A stretch of DNA of 48,858 nt, taken from NCBI GenBank assembly GCA_005223145.1, contig NJBL01000008.1, positions 1 to 48,858 of the forward strand. The letters are read 5' to 3'. The notes under the pieces are model-generated. The model had not been told where the DNA came from. It did not search any database and worked only from the letters and a program-made list of their open reading frames with translations. Below are positions 18,556-38,012 of this stretch, in pieces. The stretch is from a bacterium (candidate division B38) B3_B38. Its GTDB lineage: Bacteria > Acidobacteriota > B3-B38 > Guanabaribacteriales > B3-B38. Positions within the stretch are counted from its first letter, which is position 1. The number at the start of each line of letters is the position of its first letter. Both the position numbers and the translations under genes were made by a program.

Positions 18556-19017
18556 TTACTCCTTGGTCTTCTCCTTCTTCATCTCTTCCATTCTTTTGCT
18601 CATCTCCTGCATGTTGTTCATAGCGCTCTGCATGTGCTCGGTCATCGTCTTCATATGCTCCTGGAACTGCTCCATATGCTTTTTCATAACTTTATCTTTC
18701 ATCATCTCCTCATTCATCATCATCGAATCCATGTTCTCCATCATGCCCTTCATATGCTGAGACATATAATGCATTCTCATCATCATATTTCTCATATTCA
18801 TCATCCCCATGCATTCAGGATGCATCTTCTGTCCCATCATCATATCCATGTTCTTCATCATTTCACCGCACCGGCTCATCATTTTGTCCATGGATTGCAT
18901 CATCTCTTTCTGGTGCATCTTAGCTTTTTCCTGCCCGGAAAAGCCGATTGCTCCCCAAGTAAAGACTAAAAGAATGATAGAAGAAGAAATGCCCAAGGTC
19001 TTAAGATGCTTTCTCAC
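18556..19017 (-). CDS. Extremely Met-rich exported protein, function unknown
   Basis: Signal-like N-terminus (LGISSSIILLVFTWGAIGFS) followed by MM/HM/MMM repeats; about 42 Met in 153 aa by hand count. Confidence 0.75.
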   Translation of the reverse strand: MRKHLKTLGISSSIILLVFTWGAIGFSGQEKAKMHQKEMMQSMDKMMSRCGEMMKNMDMMMGQKMHPECMGMMNMRNMMMRMHYMSQHMKGMMENMDSMMMNEEMMKDKVMKKHMEQFQEHMKTMTEHMQSAMNNMQEMSKRMEEMKKEKTKE

Positions 19018-23891: not shown

Positions 23892-25235
23892 CTACTCCTC
23901 CTCCTGGGTGGAAAGGTCGAAGAAGGTGGTAAGCTCTTTCCTGAATACAAGCCTCACCATCCCGGTGGGTCCATTCCGCTGCTTGCCGATTATCAGCTCC
24001 GCTCGCCCCTCGTTCTCCTTAAGAGGTTCGTATTCCTCCTCGCGGTAGATAAAGCAGACCAGGTCGGCATCCTGCTCTATAGAGCCCGACTCGCGCAGGT
24101 CGGAGAGCTGGGGACGGTGGTTTTTTCTTATGTCCGGAGCTCGGCTGAGCTGAGAGAGAGCAATCAGTGGGACCCTCAACTCCTTAGCCAGTCCTTTCAG
24201 CGCCCGGGAGATGCTCGATATCTCCTGCACGCGGTTTTGATACTGCCCCGTAGGGTGCATCAGCTGGAGGTAATCTACGATGAGGAGGGTCAAACCGTGC
24301 TCCAGCATAAGCTTACGAGCCTTGGCTCGCATCTCCACTACCGATATGGCGGGTGTATCATCAATAAAGATGTTTGCCCGAGAAAGGACTTCCAGAGCCT
24401 GACCCAGTCTCCTCCACTCCTTCTCCCCGAGGTAGCCTGTCTTAAGCTTATGGGCGTCGACCCGGGCTTCGGAACAGAGCATCCTGAGGAGAAGCTGCTC
24501 TCGGGACATCTCCATGCTGAAAATCCCCACCGTATTCTCTTCTCTCTTACCCACATATTGGGCTATATTGAGGCTCAGGCTGGTCTTCCCCATAGCGGGG
24601 CGGGAGGCTATAACCACAAGATCTGAGGTCTGAAGACCAGAGGTGAGCTCGTTAAACCGAGAGAAGGGTGTGGGAACCCCGGTTATCAGCTCCCTCCTCT
24701 CTTGGAGATGGTCGAGGGTTTTGAAGCTCGCTTTGGCTATATCTTTTATAGGAACAAAGCCAGAGGTTATCCTTCCTTCGGCAATCTCAAAGACGGAGCG
24801 CTCAGCAAGGTCGATAACGGAATCGATTTCTTCATCCTGGGCATAACACTTGCTAATCACCTGATTGGAAGCGGAAATTAAGCGCCGGAGGACCGATTTC
24901 TCTTTCACAATGCGGGCATAGTGCTCTATATTGGTGGAACGAGGGACACCATCGATGAGGGAAGCTAAGTAGGCAGGTCCTCCCACCCTCTCTAGTTCGC
25001 CGCTGTCAGCGAGAGATTCCTTGAGAGTCACCAGGTCTATTGCCCTGGATTTATCCCATAGGTCAACCATCTTAAGGAAGACCCTTCGGTGGCTCTCCCG
25101 GTAGAAGTCGTCGCCGGTCAACAGCTCTATGGCCTCGTTAAGGGTTCTGTTGTCCAGCAGAATGGCACCCAGCACAGAGCGCTCCGCTTCGAGGCTATGG
25201 GGGAGCACCTTCTCTAAAGTAAGGTCATCTGCCAT
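23892..25235 (-). CDS. dnaB: Replicative DNA helicase DnaB
   Basis: LPHSLEAERSVLGAILLD, VIASRPAMGKTSLSLNIA, LLIVDYLQLM, SQLSRAPDIR. Confidence 0.97.
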   Translation of the reverse strand: MADDLTLEKVLPHSLEAERSVLGAILLDNRTLNEAIELLTGDDFYRESHRRVFLKMVDLWDKSRAIDLVTLKESLADSGELERVGGPAYLASLIDGVPRSTNIEHYARIVKEKSVLRRLISASNQVISKCYAQDEEIDSVIDLAERSVFEIAEGRITSGFVPIKDIAKASFKTLDHLQERRELITGVPTPFSRFNELTSGLQTSDLVVIASRPAMGKTSLSLNIAQYVGKREENTVGIFSMEMSREQLLLRMLCSEARVDAHKLKTGYLGEKEWRRLGQALEVLSRANIFIDDTPAISVVEMRAKARKLMLEHGLTLLIVDYLQLMHPTGQYQNRVQEISSISRALKGLAKELRVPLIALSQLSRAPDIRKNHRPQLSDLRESGSIEQDADLVCFIYREEEYEPLKENEGRAELIIGKQRNGPTGMVRLVFRKELTTFFDLSTQEEE

Positions 25236-25330
25236 CGTTCGCCTCCCCTTATTTGATATTTAAAGAACTCTGTTATCAATATTAAATTTCTTTTATTATA
25301 TATTAAAACCTGCCTAAAGTAAACTAAAAA

Positions 25331-25774
25331 TTACTCCTTTACCACCCACACCTTCACCTCTCCCATAACTTCGGCATAGAGCTTTATCTTCACCGAGTAG
25401 ACCCCCAACCGTTTGATAGACTGTTCCATAATTATTCTTTTGCGGTCAATTTCTAAACCTTCCTGTTTTAAAGCTTCGACTATTTCCCCAGGGGTAACCG
25501 AGCCGAAAAGAATGTCCTGCTCGCCTGCTTTTTTCCTGATGGTCAAGGAGATTTTCTGGAGCCTGGCTACCATCTCTTCAGCATCTTCCTTCTTCTGTAA
25601 GCAGTGGGTCTCCTCAATCTTCTGCTCCCTTTCCAACAGTTTCATGTTCTTCAGGGTAGCAGACAGGGCTAACCCTTTGGGCAAAAGATAGTTTCTGGCA
25701 TATCCATCGGCTACATCGACCACATCTCCCCGCTGTCCCAATTGGGAGACGCTCTCCTTTAAGATTACTTTCAC
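25331..25774 (-). CDS. rplI: 50S ribosomal protein L9
   Basis: VKVILKESVSQLGQRGDVVDVADGYARNYLLPKGLA; GTG start preferred to the longer ORF start. Confidence 0.95.
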   Translation of the reverse strand: MKVILKESVSQLGQRGDVVDVADGYARNYLLPKGLALSATLKNMKLLEREQKIEETHCLQKKEDAEEMVARLQKISLTIRKKAGEQDILFGSVTPGEIVEALKQEGLEIDRKRIIMEQSIKRLGVYSVKIKLYAEVMGEVKVWVVKE

Positions 25775-25947
25775 ATCAATACCTCCATTAAAAAAGATAC
25801 CTTTTCCCCTTATAAATCTTTGACTATATAAAAGAACCATACGGTGTCTTACCTATTCTTGAGGTAGAACCTTCATCAAATGATTTAAGGGACGGGAAAT
25901 CTGCACTTTTCAAGAGGATAGGCAACCGCAGAGTTTGCTCTCTTCCC

Positions 25948-26217
25948 TTATCGATAGTCGGTAGTATAAGGTAGAAGAGCTATATTTCGTGCTCTTTTAA
26001 TAGCAACCGTTAGCTTCCGTTGGTGTCGAGCACAGGTGCCTGAAATTCGCCGAGGGAAGATTTTTCCCCTTTCAGGTATATACTCTTGTAAAAGTCTCAC
26101 ATCTTTGTAATCAATCTCGTCAATCTTATTGGCGCAGAACTTACATACTTTCCGCCGTCTATAGGTAAACCGGCGATAAAACTGGTCTGTTTTCCTCTTC
26201 CTCCTTCCAAAGCGCAT
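25948..26217 (-). CDS. rpsR: 30S ribosomal protein S18
   Basis: [62 protein letters not shown]. Confidence 0.95.
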
Positions 26218-26277
26218 CCCACCGCTCCTTTCCTGAAAATTAGGGTTTCTCATTATCCCGTAGGGGGGCTTCCTGTT

Positions 26278-26655
26278 CTACCACTGGCGGTGCATTCCAC
26301 CAGCAAATCTGGTTCTCCCTGCCTCAGAGTAGTCGCGCCGCAGTCTCTTTACATCAACCTCCTTTGGTGGACCTTTGAGCTTTACTGTAAGGTATATGAG
26401 CACTAACTCCATTATCTTAAGCCTCTTCTCCAGCTTCTCCACAATCCCCCGTTTCGCCTGGTAGACGAAATAGAGGTAAACCCCTTCATTAAACCTTTTT
26501 ATGGGATATCCTAATTTAATCTTACCCCAGTTTTCCTTTTTTTGCAACTCCCCATCTTCTCTGGTTATCGTTTGCTCGACATCTTGGACAAAGCTCTCTA
26601 TCTCTTCTGGGGTTGCCTGCGGGTTTACTGCTATTATAGTCTCATAAAGCTGCAT
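26278..26655 (-). CDS. rpsF: 30S ribosomal protein S6
   Basis: MQLYETIIAVNPQATPEEIESFVQDVEQ, WGKIKLGYPIKRFNEGVYLYF. Confidence 0.93.
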   Translation of the reverse strand: MQLYETIIAVNPQATPEEIESFVQDVEQTITREDGELQKKENWGKIKLGYPIKRFNEGVYLYFVYQAKRGIVEKLEKRLKIMELVLIYLTVKLKGPPKEVDVKRLRRDYSEAGRTRFAGGMHRQW

Positions 26656-26719: not shown

Positions 26720-28609
26720 TTACAAGAACCCCTTTTTCAATAAGGTGGCAACGATGACCGATGTGACCGCCATAACTATTACTACGCTATTTATCAACGG
26801 GCTTACCCCTTCTCTCAGAGTCTCCCCTATCAGGTCGCCAACCTTATAGACTGAACAATCACCGGAGCTCCCCCCCTTTCTTTTCCCTCTCTCCATAAAG
26901 ATTCTGGCACCCTGCCAGGCGCCCCCTCCGTTGGTCATAAATATGGAAAGGACAATCCCTGAAAGGACGACCCCTCCCAACAGTCCTCCTAACGCTTCTC
27001 TTCCCATCAGAAATCCCACCATGGGTGGGGTGCCAAGGGCTATAATCCCGGGCAAAGCCATTTCTTTCAGAGAAGCATTGGCGGAGAACTTGGCCACCAG
27101 GGTGAGCCACTTATCTTCCCTTATTCCCTTTTGCTTATCTTTCCCTGGGGATAACTTCTTGCTCATTTCCCTGGAAGCCCTCCTCAGAGAAGATATCACT
27201 AAAGAGGCTATAAAAAAGGGTATCAGCCCCCCCAGGAGGAGACTAGCAATGATTCGGGGGCTTGCTATATCGATTATATCTATCCCTTCCACAGAGTAGT
27301 AGGCAGTAAAAAGAGCGATAGAAGCTACCGCTGAAAAACCGAGGACAAGCCCCTTACTGGAAGAAGCCCTCTCCTCCTCTACCAGGCTCTCCTGACAGCT
27401 AAGAGCCAGAAATATCCCCATAACGGACGACAGGGCCATTGTGGCTACCCCCATTCCAAAAAGCCCCAGAAGCCGGTGAACCAAATAAACGGCCAAGCAG
27501 AGTGTCACAATAGGGACAGCGGTGCTCTGCATTCCTGAAGCAAAACCGCTGATGATATTAGTAGCTATTCCGGTAGAAGCAGAGCGGGCAACCGCCCTGG
27601 CAGGATTAGACCGAACATAATATTCACTGGTGCCCAAAATTGCCATCCCTGTTATTAGACCTAAAAGGCTGACTTCCCATATTTCCGTCCCCTGTGGGAG
27701 ATGGAGAGAGAAAAGATATATCGCCAAGACCAGCAAAGCGAAGGATAATATGGAGGGAATTCCAAAATTTGATAAGAATCCTCTTCTGATTCTCGCAAAT
27801 AAATAGCCTATTACAGAAGCCCCAAAGCCAGCTATTATCAACAGCAATAGGAGCTCCTCCCAGGAAGAACCTCCTGTGGAGGAGTGCATCCCCGTAATAG
27901 TCAAAGCCGCTGCCGAAGCCCCATAGCAGGCAAACAGACCAACGGATACTCCCGCAAAGTTCCCTAACCTATTTTTAACCAATCTGGCAGCAGAAGCCAA
28001 CTCAGGGGAACTTGAGGGAGGGGAGCTTTCCCCCTCCGAGGCTATGGCCCTGATAGCTCCCAGGGCAAACACCTCCCCACTCATATACATTGCCAGGGAT
28101 ACCAGGCTTATGCCGAGGGCAAATCCGCTGATATCTCTCCCTGACAGAAGGTTGAGCCTTAAAGATTTCAATAGAACCCCCATAGCCAACATCCCCAGGC
28201 TGGCGACCAAAAGACCTGTTAATCCAGCCGCCTGATAGGCTATTGTCTCCCGCTTTCTTGCCCACTTCTTTTGCTGCGGTAATCTTTCATCAGTCCTGGC
28301 TGCAATTCTCAAGGTGAAATGCCCGATGATTAGAGAGGCAACTCCCCCCAATAAAAAGGTGCTCCCCATTGCCCAGCTGAGCTGCCAGCCGAGCAGGAAA
28401 AACAAGGCAACCATAACCATACAGAGAGCGGCAAATTGGCGGCGTATGAAACCTTTTATAATATGGTCGGCAACCCGCAAAGTCCCACTGGGAATCCCCC
28501 CCGCTTGAGGTCTCTTCATAAGCCAGAAGAAATGGAGTATAACGACCAGGAGGAAGCTGACTCCCCCCACTAAAAGGACGATCTCCTCTAATCCCATCAT
28601 CTTAATCAC
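26720..28609 (-). CDS. Membrane-bound pyrophosphatase-like protein with degenerate catalytic motifs
   Basis: Fold signatures retained: GLITGMAILGTSEYYVRSN, STGIATNIISGFASGMQSTAVP, SLKEMALPGIIALGTPPMVGFLMGREALGGLLGGVVLSGIVLSIFMTNGGGAW; catalytic DxxxD motifs missing. Confidence 0.85.
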   Translation of the reverse strand: MIKMMGLEEIVLLVGGVSFLLVVILHFFWLMKRPQAGGIPSGTLRVADHIIKGFIRRQFAALCMVMVALFFLLGWQLSWAMGSTFLLGGVASLIIGHFTLRIAARTDERLPQQKKWARKRETIAYQAAGLTGLLVASLGMLAMGVLLKSLRLNLLSGRDISGFALGISLVSLAMYMSGEVFALGAIRAIASEGESSPPSSSPELASAARLVKNRLGNFAGVSVGLFACYGASAAALTITGMHSSTGGSSWEELLLLLIIAGFGASVIGYLFARIRRGFLSNFGIPSILSFALLVLAIYLFSLHLPQGTEIWEVSLLGLITGMAILGTSEYYVRSNPARAVARSASTGIATNIISGFASGMQSTAVPIVTLCLAVYLVHRLLGLFGMGVATMALSSVMGIFLALSCQESLVEEERASSSKGLVLGFSAVASIALFTAYYSVEGIDIIDIASPRIIASLLLGGLIPFFIASLVISSLRRASREMSKKLSPGKDKQKGIREDKWLTLVAKFSANASLKEMALPGIIALGTPPMVGFLMGREALGGLLGGVVLSGIVLSIFMTNGGGAWQGARIFMERGKRKGGSSGDCSVYKVGDLIGETLREGVSPLINSVVIVMAVTSVIVATLLKKGFL

Positions 28610-28637: not shown

Positions 28638-29201
28638 TTATTGGTTAAAAATATTCATAGCCTGGAGCAAATTTCCTCTCAGAATGCGTATCAGCGCCTT
28701 CTCTGCCAGATCCAAGGCTCTTTCCACCAGGGGCTTCTCTTCCTCGGTGAACTCAGCCAGAACATAGCTGGTCAGGTCTTCGGGTTTAAAGTCTCCCCTT
28801 TTAAGACCTAATCTTATACGGACGAAGCCCTCTTTCTGGAGATGGTCAATAATCGACTGCACTCCCTTGTGCCCACTACTGCCACCTTCCATACGAAGAC
28901 GAATTTTCCCCAATTCTATATCAATATCATCGTAAAGGACTATCAAATCCCCTTCCGAACAACCGTATTTCCCTAAGACCTCCTTGACTGCTATGCCGCT
29001 GCGATTCATATAGGTTGTAGGTTTGAAGAGAACAACTCTCTCCCCTTCTATCTCCCCCTCATAATAAACATAAAGGCTCTCTTCCTTTTCTCTGATAGAG
29101 CTTATACCTGCGACGATATAATCAACAGCAAGGAAACCAAAGTTATGGCGGGTGAGCTGATATTGAGGTTCTGGGTTTCCCAATCCAACTACAATCTTCA
29201 A
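28638..29201 (-). CDS. pth: Peptidyl-tRNA hydrolase
   Basis: LKIVVGLGNPEPQYQLTRHNFGFLAVD, KPTTYMNRSG, DDIDIELGKIRLRMEGGSSGHKG; TTG start preferred, since the longer ORF runs into rplY. Confidence 0.93.
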   Translation of the reverse strand: MKIVVGLGNPEPQYQLTRHNFGFLAVDYIVAGISSIREKEESLYVYYEGEIEGERVVLFKPTTYMNRSGIAVKEVLGKYGCSEGDLIVLYDDIDIELGKIRLRMEGGSSGHKGVQSIIDHLQKEGFVRIRLGLKRGDFKPEDLTSYVLAEFTEEEKPLVERALDLAEKALIRILRGNLLQAMNIFNQ

Positions 29202-29244
29202 ATCTTCGGATTTCTTTGGACTATATAACGAAGAGAGTAAAGTG

Positions 29245-29916
29245 CTACTCCTTTTTTTCCTTCGTTTCTTCCTCGGGTTTCTCCTTTTCGACGAGTTCGG
29301 CTCCCTCGGGGACTTCCTCTTCCTCCTCAGCAACTGCCACCTCTTCTACTTCAGGAGCGGCTACGGACACAATTACCTGCTCGGGAGGGCTTAATATTTT
29401 GACCTTCTCATCCACCTTCAAGTCCGCAACTCTAACGAGGTCGCCAATATTCAGCTGTGCGATATTGACCGTTATGTTCTCGGGGAGATTTTGGGGAAAG
29501 CACTCCACTTCCACTTCTCGCTGGGTGAACTCTATAATTCCGCCATCGATTTCCACCCCCTTTGCCTCTCCCTCTAAGACTATGGCTACCGCCACTCTCA
29601 GCCTGGTCTCCATAGATATTCTTAACAGGTCAACATGGAGGAGTTCGCTGGTTACCGGATCTAATTGGAAGTCTTTTATCATCACCTGGTTAATAGTTTC
29701 GGCTCCGGATATCTTAAGCTGAAAGATGGTGTTTTCCCCTGTCTCCAGACTAAGTACCCTCTCTATATCCAAGGGGTTGATTACCAGAGGGATTGACTCT
29801 TTCTTAGACCCATAGACTACACCCGGTATAAAGCCCTTTTGGCGAAGGCGCCGGGCTTCCCCTTTGCCAAAACCCCCTCGAACTTCTGCTTTTAAAACCT
29901 GCCTCTCCACTGGCAA
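29245..29916 (-). CDS. rplY: 50S ribosomal protein L25/Ctc with acidic C-terminal tail
   Basis: GKGEARRLRQKGFIPGVVYG, HVDLLRI, Glu/Lys-rich tail. Confidence 0.93.
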   Translation of the reverse strand: MPVERQVLKAEVRGGFGKGEARRLRQKGFIPGVVYGSKKESIPLVINPLDIERVLSLETGENTIFQLKISGAETINQVMIKDFQLDPVTSELLHVDLLRISMETRLRVAVAIVLEGEAKGVEIDGGIIEFTQREVEVECFPQNLPENITVNIAQLNIGDLVRVADLKVDEKVKILSPPEQVIVSVAAPEVEEVAVAEEEEEVPEGAELVEKEKPEEETKEKKE

Positions 29917-29939: not shown

Positions 29940-30881
29940 TTAAAGAAACAGAGAGCTCACCGAGGCGTTATCATGAATCCTTTTAATCGCCTCCCCGAAA
30001 AGGGGAGCTATAGAGAGATGAATTAACTTTGGGCTCTTTTTCGTCCCTTCGGAGAAGGGAATAGAATTGGTCATCACCACCTTCTCCAGAACCGACTCCT
30101 CAATACGCTGTATGGCAGAGCCAGATAACACCGGATGGCTGGCGCAGGCCAATACCCTTGCGGCTCCCGCTTCCTTTAAAGCTCGGGCGGTCTGGCTCAG
30201 AGTGCCAGCGGTATCGACCATATCGTCCACTATAAAAGCGGTCTTTCCTACCACATCACCAATAACGTGGAGCACTTCAGCCACATTAGGTTTCTCCCGT
30301 CTTTTGTCTATGATGGCAATGGGAACCTGCAGCCTCTTGGCATAAGCCCTCGTTCGCTCCACACCCCCGGCATCAGGAGAGACCAGAACTAAATCAGAGA
30401 GATTAGATTTGGCAATATAATCGACAATAACCGGGGCAGCAAATAGGTGGTCAACAGGGATATTGAAAAAGCCCTGAATCTGGGGAGCATGAAGATCCAT
30501 GGTCAGCAGTCTATCGGCATTGGCGGCGGAAAGGAGGTCGGCTACCAGCTTGGCAGTAATGGGCACCCTCGGTTTGTCTTTGCGGTCTTGTCGGGCGTAG
30601 CCATAGTAGGGCATGACAGCAGTTATCCTCTTGGCTGAGGCACGCTTGAAGGCATCGATCATTATCAATAACTCCATCAGATTGTCGTTGACCGGGCTAC
30701 AGATAGATTGAATGATAAAGACATCCCTCCCCCGCACATTCTCCTGAACTTGACAGTAGATTTCCCCATCGCTAAATCTTGAGATGACAATGTCTCCCAG
30801 CTCGATGTTCAGGTACTGGCATATCTCCACCGCCAGCTCCCGATTGGAACTACCCGAGAAAACCTTAAGCTCCTCTTCCAA
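29940..30881 (-). CDS. prs: Ribose-phosphate pyrophosphokinase
   Basis: [49 protein letters not shown]. Confidence 0.97.
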
Positions 30882-35496: not shown

Positions 35497-35575
35497 TATG
35501 GGATAATTGAGATTAAGTCGCAATAAAAATGGAAAATTACCTTCTCATCTCCTAACCATAAGAGAGGGATTTCCA

Positions 35576-35998
35576 ATGCGTAATTCATCTGCTCCCAAGC
35601 GATGGAGACTAACGGCTGAAAGGAGGATTATGCTGAGGGAAATACACACCATCCCTTCCCATTTCACTGCTAAAGAACTCCTTTCCCGGATGAAAAGGAA
35701 GAGGAAGAAGGTCTCTCGGGCTACCATCTACCGCGCCCTGGAACTATTCCTACAAGAGGGATTGATTGAGAAGGTTGAGCTGGGCGGGGGAAATTCCCGA
35801 TACGAGTGTATCTCCCACCGTCCTCATCATGACCACCTGATTTGTGTCAATTGTGGGAAGATAATTGAGGTCCAGAGCCCGGTGCTGGAAGAGAATAAGA
35901 CAAAAGTATGCCAGTCTTATCACTTCCTCCCCATAAGCCACACCCTTCAGATCCTCGGCTATTGCCAGAGTTGTCGTCAAAAGCCGAAAATACCCTGA
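35576..35998 (+). CDS. fur: Fur family transcriptional regulator
   Basis: RWRLTAERRIMLREI, SRATIYRALELFLQEGLIEKV, HRPHHDHLICVNCGKIIE; start at MRNSSAPKRW preferred. Confidence 0.9.
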   Translation: MRNSSAPKRWRLTAERRIMLREIHTIPSHFTAKELLSRMKRKRKKVSRATIYRALELFLQEGLIEKVELGGGNSRYECISHRPHHDHLICVNCGKIIEVQSPVLEENKTKVCQSYHFLPISHTLQILGYCQSCRQKPKIP

Positions 35999-36020
35999 TA
36001 TACATCAGGAGGAAGAAAGA

Positions 36021-38012
36021 ATGCCCTTTCACCACCGAAGAAGAAGGAGATTTAAAAGGGGAAGGTTCCCAACCTCTCTACCCCGTTTTGTCCTTGTCGG
36101 AAACCCCAATGTAGGAAAGAGCGTCATCTTCAACCTCTTAACTCGCAGATACGCCAGCGTTTCCAACTACCCGGGCACCACGGTGGAGCTTATGACAGGG
36201 AGCACCACCCTCAATCACCAACCCGCCCTAATTGTAGACACCCCCGGAGTCAACAGCCTCATACCTATGTCTGAAGAAGAGATGGTTACCCGCAACATCC
36301 TTATGTTCGAAGACCCTCGGGGGATAATTCTGGTAATCGACAGCAAAAACCTCAGCAGGGGGCTGTTGATAGCTCTCCAACTGGCAGAGATGGGGCTCCC
36401 TTTCCTCATCGACCTCAATATGGAAGACGAGGCTAAAAGCCTGGGTATGAAAGTAGATGTTAACATGCTATCAGAGCTTATGGGGGTCAAAGTGGTTCCC
36501 ACCGTCAGCACTCAAAGGAAAGGGATAAAAGACCTGATCGACCTCATCCCTCAATCCTCCCAAGCTGCCTATCCTATATCCTACCGCCCGGATATTGAAG
36601 AAGGGATAGCAAAGCTTACCCCCCTCATAAAATCATCTCCCATAAACAAACGGGCGATAGCCCTCATGCTTTTAGCGGGAGATAGAAGCCTCATTCCCTG
36701 GCTCTCATCCACCCGAAGGAGGGAAACCATTGAGCAGATCGACCAGATAAGGTCACGCATTGAAGCTAAGTTCCACCAACCCCTCAGCTCCCTCATCAAC
36801 CAGCAACTTCTTCAGATAGCTGACGAAATCATCCAAAAGGTCCAGAAGGAGAGAGGGAGGGAAAAAAGGAACTGGCAGGAGGTTGTAGGACGGCTATCCC
36901 TTCATCCCCTATGGGGCATCCCCATCCTTCTGCTTGTCCTCTTTCTGGTTTACCAGTTTGTGGGAAAGTTCGGGGCAGGCACCACAGCTACTTTTATGGA
37001 GAATGTAGTCTTCGGCAAATATATCAATCCCTGGGTAACCGAGGGGGTTAAGTCTATCCTTCCCGTAAAATTCTTGCAGGAGCTTATAGTGGGGCAATAC
37101 GGGTTGATGACCATGGCGCTGACTTACTCCTTTGCCATTATCTTGCCCATCGTCGCCTATTTCTTTCTGGCTTTCGCTTTGCTGGAAGACTCCGGCTATC
37201 TCCCCCGGTTGGCAGCTATGCTTAACTCTCCTTTCAAAATCATAGGGTTAACCGGAAAGGCGGTGTTACCGCTGATGTTAGGTCTGGGGTGCTGCACCAT
37301 GGCTACCTTATCAGCACGGATTCTCGATTCCAGGAAAGAGAGAATCCTGGTCACCCTGCTGCTTGCTCTGAGCATCCCCTGCTCGGCTCAGATGGCGGTT
37401 ATTCTGGCGCTGTTGGCGGGTATCTCGCTCAAAGCAACATTGTGGTGGGGAGGGACCATCCTCGCTGTGCTCATAGGGACGAGTTTCGCCTCTTCCCGCC
37501 TCCTCCCCGGGGCTTCCTCCGACTTCATAATGGAGCTTCCCCCCATACGCCGTCCTCAGCTATCCAATATCCTGCTGAAGACCAGCTCCCGCATCATGTG
37601 GTATCTAAGAGAGGCTGTCCCCCTTTTCATCCTGGGAACCCTTGTCCTCTTCGTATTGGACAAATTCGATGTGCTGAGCTATCTGGAGAAGCTCGCCTCT
37701 CCCGTCATTACCCAATTCCTCGACCTTCCCTCCCGGGCAACCCAGGCTTTCATCGTCGGATTCCTCCGCCGTGACTATGGAGTAGCAGGTCTCTATCTGC
37801 TGGCAAAGCAGGGGCAGTTATCCGGCACCCAGATTGTGGTTGGTGTAACTACTCTCACCCTCTTCGTCCCCTGCATCGCCAATCTTTTTGTGATGCTCAA
37901 GGAAAGGGGATGGAAGGTAACCTCTCTTATGCTCGCCTTCATCATACCGGTATCGCTACTAATAGGTGGGCTGTTAAACTTTATATTGCGAACCTTTGGG
38001 GTGCAATTTTAA
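36021..38012 (+). CDS. feoB: Ferrous iron transport protein B
   Basis: VGNPNVGKSVIFNLLTRRYASVSNYPGTTVE, DTPGVNSL, GLGCCTMATLSARIL, core/gate Nucleoside_recog TM motifs. Confidence 0.95.
   Translation: MPFHHRRRRRFKRGRFPTSLPRFVLVGNPNVGKSVIFNLLTRRYASVSNYPGTTVELMTGSTTLNHQPALIVDTPGVNSLIPMSEEEMVTRNILMFEDPRGIILVIDSKNLSRGLLIALQLAEMGLPFLIDLNMEDEAKSLGMKVDVNMLSELMGVKVVPTVSTQRKGIKDLIDLIPQSSQAAYPISYRPDIEEGIAKLTPLIKSSPINKRAIALMLLAGDRSLIPWLSSTRRRETIEQIDQIRSRIEAKFHQPLSSLINQQLLQIADEIIQKVQKERGREKRNWQEVVGRLSLHPLWGIPILLLVLFLVYQFVGKFGAGTTATFMENVVFGKYINPWVTEGVKSILPVKFLQELIVGQYGLMTMALTYSFAIILPIVAYFFLAFALLEDSGYLPRLAAMLNSPFKIIGLTGKAVLPLMLGLGCCTMATLSARILDSRKERILVTLLLALSIPCSAQMAVILALLAGISLKATLWWGGTILAVLIGTSFASSRLLPGASSDFIMELPPIRRPQLSNILLKTSSRIMWYLREAVPLFILGTLVLFVLDKFDVLSYLEKLASPVITQFLDLPSRATQAFIVGFLRRDYGVAGLYLLAKQGQLSGTQIVVGVTTLTLFVPCIANLFVMLKERGWKVTSLMLAFIIPVSLLIGGLLNFILRTFGVQF

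Follow-up and report, generated by a model that had tools for sequence, protein, structure and literature searches.

The 48,858-nucleotide stretch of DNA analysed here (contig NJBL01000008.1 of the bacterium B3_B38, hereafter the window) carries a homologue of membrane pyrophosphatases (mPPases) that has lost 13 of the 14 residues of the PPi/Mg2+ site and lies intact inside an operon of translation genes. The account that we favour, with moderate confidence, is that an operon-borne mPPase died in place as an enzyme and was kept; more tentatively, it may now act as a non-catalytic dimeric scaffold or partner.

The gene is at positions 26720..28609 on the minus strand, and its frame comprises 629 uninterrupted codons from a GTG start, although by comparison with its orthologue the true start is likely to be the ATG at 28600 or 28597. 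The initial annotation had aligned the protein with mPPases by eye along its whole length, and profile searches bear this out: the match to PF03030 (E = 1.7e-76, 258.7 bits) consists of stretches along the entire protein, and solved mPPases are matched at 5e-47. The score lies above the Pfam gathering cut-off of 29.7 bits even though a pyrophosphatase role is implausible, so automated annotation can mislabel the protein. It fails the equivalog cut-off of the best NCBIfam mPPase model (292 bits against 546).

The placement of an intact frame in a translation operon also held. The gene order, all on the minus strand, is prs-rplY-pth-[X]-rpsF-rpsR-rplI-dnaB, where X is the mPPase homologue. Directly upstream is pth (peptidyl-tRNA hydrolase, 28638..29333), assigned by synteny with the corresponding loci of two related genomes, G001 and G003 (L033 and L034); its true start is probably internal, because the listed frame exceeds its relatives in length. 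Directly downstream is rpsF (ribosomal protein S6, 26278..26655). The remaining genes were named by sequence and conserved order: rplY (bL25/CTC, 29245..29916) and prs (PRPP synthase, 29940..30881) on one side, and rpsR (25948-26253), rplI (25331-25840) and dnaB (23892-25235), together spanning 23892..26253, on the other. Elsewhere in the window, a gene at 18556-19017 on the minus strand encodes a small, secreted-looking and extremely Met/His-rich protein (MMQSMDKMMSRCGEMMKNMDMMMG...), possibly metal-binding, and the His-rich frame opposite it is simply its reverse complement. A Fur-family-like regulator followed by a FeoB-like ferrous iron transporter, both named by sequence only, occupies 35507-38012 on the plus strand.

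We mapped catalytic residues by profile alignment to the numbering of the Vigna radiata mPPase, a map that is confident outside the eroded loops 5-6 and 11-12. In the degenerate loop 5-6 and the start of TM6 (residues 178-217, 27959..28078, minus strand), the GGG..TKAADVGADL block is beyond recognition (K250L, D253I, D257A), as had been claimed, and the canonical block DNVGDNVGDVAG has become RLVKNRLGNFAG (D279R, D283N, D287N, D294G). Loop 11-12 is collapsed, again as first described (residues 403-420, 27350..27403, minus strand): the DAYGPIADN...GNTT segment is deleted, D507 and N534 fall in gaps, and K541 is kept. WDNAKK has become WQGARI (residues 565-570, 26900..26917, minus strand; D691Q, K694R, K695I). 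The former GDTVGDPxKDT motif is now GDLIGETLREGVSPLI (residues 591-606, 26792..26839, minus strand), where GDTIGDPLKD is reduced to GDLIGETLRE (D727E, K730R, D731E). All of the motifs quoted in the initial annotation thus agree with the alignment; its statement that every acidic ligand is lost goes slightly too far, because D723 survives as D592, the only site residue of the 14 that is kept, and D727 and D731 are now glutamates.

The ion gate, as defined in PMC10897367, is neutral. D294 (D6.50) is replaced by glycine, position 297 and the E301 position (E6.53/57) are alanine, S298 (S6.54) is cysteine and K742 (K16.50) is isoleucine, with N738 (N16.46) kept. At the 139 positions that do not vary among canonical mPPases, 28 of 47 G/P residues are retained, but only 3 of 19 D/E and 2 of 12 K/R, a loss of charged residues far above chance expectation. 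Judged from these residues, the protein does not plausibly bind Mg-PPi or operate the known gate.

Among the proteins compared, this state is confined to one lineage. Among about 170 distinct mPPase frames, with site residues scored only where they fell inside the fetched stretch of sequence, the only degenerate ones are three proteins of this order (0 or 1 of 14 residues each). Every other frame keeps all of its readable site residues, apart from one ambiguous X, and there are no intermediates. Two sets of candidates were rejected: an apparently dead frame in L026, which overlaps a canonical mPPase, proved to be the truncated beginning of a long mPPase, and the long homologues of 800-1000 aa have their catalytic motifs.

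We compared the window's genome (G000) with two genomes of the same genus (G001 and G002) and one from another family of the same order (G003, 100% complete). Dead orthologues are known from only three assemblies, all of which we take to be MAGs. In G001 (JAOUOQ01, labelled Candidatus Aminicenantes in GenBank) the orthologue is 82% identical and shows the same losses, with 1 of 14 site residues. The G003 orthologue is 30% identical, 564 aa long and matches PF03030 at 4.4e-37; it has 0 of 14 site residues, even D723 being lost, with the early positions counted as gaps and not as defined substitutions because its N-terminal half aligns poorly. The operon order is identical in the window, G001 and G003; the G002 bin does not contain rpsF, hence the slot is not visible there. 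A single-sequence scan of the genome contigs gave no matches, and in an alignment-based scan the sole extra pseudoenzyme sequence was again that of G001, the remaining matches being mPPases with intact motifs. The losses are common to two families whose proteins share 30% identity, which makes the dead state an old one.

Between the window and G001 the dead gene has dN = 0.100 and dS = 0.33, giving omega = 0.31 (bootstrap 95% CI 0.23-0.40); its operon neighbours range from 0.08 to 0.24, and the canonical mPPase compared between G001 and G002 stands at 0.14. By region, omega is 0.25 for the interface helices plus TM14, 0.27 for the inner ring without TM15, 0.43 for the former catalytic loops and 0.46 for loop 13-14; all of these are two-sequence NG86 estimates and the regional values rest on few changes. 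Constraint on the gene is concentrated in the membrane part. The shared losses, the shared operon slot and the value of omega uphold the initial reading of the gene as a pseudoenzyme rather than a decaying gene.

An AlphaFold2 model built from a 34-row alignment has a pLDDT of 80.3 and a pTM of 0.86, partly carried by the canonical rows, since the two pseudoenzyme sequences alone give a pLDDT of 35.5. Its PDB matches at E <= 0.001 are exclusively mPPases, with TM-scores of 0.77-0.87 by query length. In mPPases the dimer interface is formed by helices 10, 13 and 15 (PMC10897367). Identity of the dead protein to canonical mPPases is 47% in TM10 and 57% in TM15, compared with 57% and 77% among the canonical proteins themselves, whereas in the catalytic loops it is 22-27% compared with 80-91%. 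The two divergent pseudoenzymes are identical to each other at 20 of 36 positions in TM10 and 12 of 25 in TM15, but at only 4 of 25 in TM16, and TM11, TM12 and TM16 are near background between the two families. From these alignments, the best-kept parts are the packing skeleton and helices 10, 14 and 15, with helix 13 kept moderately.

The slot of the dead gene is filled by a canonical mPPase in many other genomes. The rpsF locus was fetched from 28 genomes of the phylum outside this order: in 10 of them rpsF has a canonical mPPase as its immediate neighbour, and in about half of the 28 pth adjoins rpsF with no mPPase between them. The pth-hppA-rpsF arrangement is also found in records labelled Tectomicrobia, Ignavibacteria, Bacteroidetes, Neomarinimicrobiota and others; loci at which it recurs across phyla are L079, L087, L092, L094, L110, L116, L136 and L152. 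Our search of the mostly open-access literature found no mention of this linkage. We also considered whether DUF2232 (YybS) had been replaced at this locus; none of eight genomes of the phylum has a DUF2232, which leaves the idea without support. In a phylogenetic tree (LG+G4, 412 variable columns, catalytic invariants removed) the pseudoenzyme pair falls inside a 22-row set, with 12 operon-linked and 8 unlinked rows, with SH-aLRT support of 100, the only support measure used; the order's unlinked intact mPPases form their own group, apart from that set. The pseudoenzyme branch is long and its placement is open to long-branch bias; a C20 mixture tree gave a saturated pseudoenzyme branch and was replaced by LG+G4. 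The dead gene thus probably descends in place from a canonical mPPase of the operon, an origin that the initial annotation had not foreseen.

Canonical mPPases are present in G001 (C26), G002 (C96) and G003 (C52), unlinked to pth and rpsF, so that dead and canonical copies coexist in G001 and G003. The initial annotation had raised the matter of an intact hppA in the same genome as the dead gene, and we found none in the window's genome, which is 93% complete. In G001 and G002 the canonical hppA sits after genes for an M24 peptidase and an SNF-family transporter; in the window's genome (C63, L205 1-3085) the same M24-SNF pair is followed by tRNA-Leu and an unrelated gene at the contig end, with no hppA. 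A canonical hppA is therefore absent from the genus-conserved site and could lie in the unassembled 7%. Searches of the order's four genomes (G000-G003) detected no pyrophosphatase of the PF00719 or DHHA2 (PF02833) family. The window's genome is thus left with no recognized pyrophosphatase, which raises the question of how PPi is disposed of in this lineage. Probably the operon hppA died in place after, or while, the second, unlinked copy took over.

Our proposal for the history of the gene is as follows. The ancestor would have been a canonical mPPase encoded in an ancient operon, pth-hppA-rpsF. Its descendants in this order would have shed the ion gate along with catalysis and the binding of PPi, while remaining intact membrane proteins of the mPPase fold under purifying selection, the order's working mPPase activity being carried by the second, unlinked hppA. 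The dead protein may still dimerise through helices 10, 13 and 15. Its function is the least certain part of the account: tentatively, we suggest a non-catalytic dimeric membrane scaffold or partner that is co-expressed with translation genes, and not a pump, PPi sensor or channel. Because the interface helices are conserved, we rank this function first, a re-lined transporter second and a heterodimeric regulator third; the step from a conserved interface to a scaffold function is one that we infer from sequence. The inner-ring helices are as constrained within the genus as the interface set, which would also fit a new core pathway.

Such a pathway is the essence of the second-ranked reading, a PPi-independent transporter or channel in which the passage through the inner ring is kept and re-lined for another substrate. 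The fold of 15-17 helices is a plausible conduit, and of the regional classes, inner-ring helices 5, 6, 11, 12 and 16 show the highest conservation in the genus (88% identity). However, the gate residues are now G, A, C and I. The six inner-ring helices together carry 16.6 charged residues on average in canonical mPPases, but 10 in the window's protein and 5 in that of G003, where TM5 and TM6 are unalignable. Few polar inner-ring positions are common to the two pseudoenzymes, and apart from helix 15 the inner-ring helices are poorly conserved between the two families, so we regard this reading as rather unlikely. Somewhat less likely still is a role in regulation or assembly, with the dead protein pairing with a canonical mPPase as a heterodimer. 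The interface helices are the best kept, both copies coexist in G001 and G003, and canonical mPPases work as dimers that show half-of-the-sites behaviour (PMC10897367, PMC9408878), all of which would suit such a partner; it is weakened by the window's genome, 93% complete, with no canonical mPPase found and the genus-conserved site empty.

Two further readings are very improbable. A relaxed pseudogene decaying before frameshifts appear would account for an omega 2-4 times that of most operon neighbours and for the relaxed catalytic loops, but it is strongly disfavoured by a confidence interval far below 1, a frame that is intact in three genomes and the age of the dead state. The idea that the protein has kept pyrophosphatase activity through shifted or alternative ligands draws on the need for a PPi sink in genomes with no PF00719 or DHHA2 enzyme and, in the window's case, no canonical mPPase, and on D592, E596 and E600 remaining near one former site, but no replacement acidic cluster is seen, the former catalytic loops are relaxed, and the G003 orthologue is without even these residual acids.

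Of the roles first suggested for the pseudoenzyme, a scaffold is possible and so, at lower probability, is a transporter of another substrate. A PPi sensor is disfavoured because the Lys and Asp ligands of PPi and Mg are gone and constraint is among the weakest in the former catalytic loops. A cation pump or channel using the old route is disfavoured by the changes of the gate (D to G, E to A, S to C, K to I). More generally, we consider it fairly probable that the dead protein represents a new functional class in the mPPase fold, PPi-independent and arisen in situ in the pth-rpsF operon; it would have become a scaffold, a partner of the translation machinery at the membrane or a solute pathway once PPi hydrolysis was, or could be, left to a second hppA.

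mPPases are treated as a uniform enzyme family. The initial annotation knew of no mPPase pseudoenzyme family, and our search of the mostly open-access literature likewise found no description of an mPPase pseudoenzyme or inactive homologue. No other ion pump is known to be homologous to mPPases (PMC9408878). A conserved member with neither the chemistry nor the gate separates what the fold needs for folding and dimer formation from what it needs for catalysis, and is a natural experiment on the debated inter-subunit roles.

The long divergent mPPases of the phylum (frames of about 800-1000 aa) are PF03030 relatives found by the same query as the dead protein, but they keep the catalytic aspartates (GGIFTKIADIGSDL, IKEDDARNPGVIAD, GDTVGDPFKD) and hence are not pseudoenzymes. 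Proteins of this kind, which are common in the phylum, have an N-terminal extension in L158-L161 and L163, and one of them lies directly after an ordinary mPPase in L158. The order's second mPPase (C26, C96 and C52 above) belongs to the same fold family and shares genomes with the dead protein, but it has intact catalytic residues, is unlinked to the operon, falls elsewhere in the tree and is about 30% identical to it. With canonical mPPases (PF03030; for example the V. radiata H+-PPase 4A01, the T. maritima Na+-PPase 4AV3 and the P. aerophilum enzyme 8B37) the dead protein shares whole-length homology, the predicted fold of 15-17 helices, helices 10, 14 and 15 and the G/P packing positions. 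Many relatives also occupy the same place in the operon. The dead protein differs from canonical mPPases in having 1 of 14 PPi/Mg site residues, eroded loops 5-6 and 11-12, a neutral gate and a length of 629 aa, compared with about 660-750 aa in most relatives.
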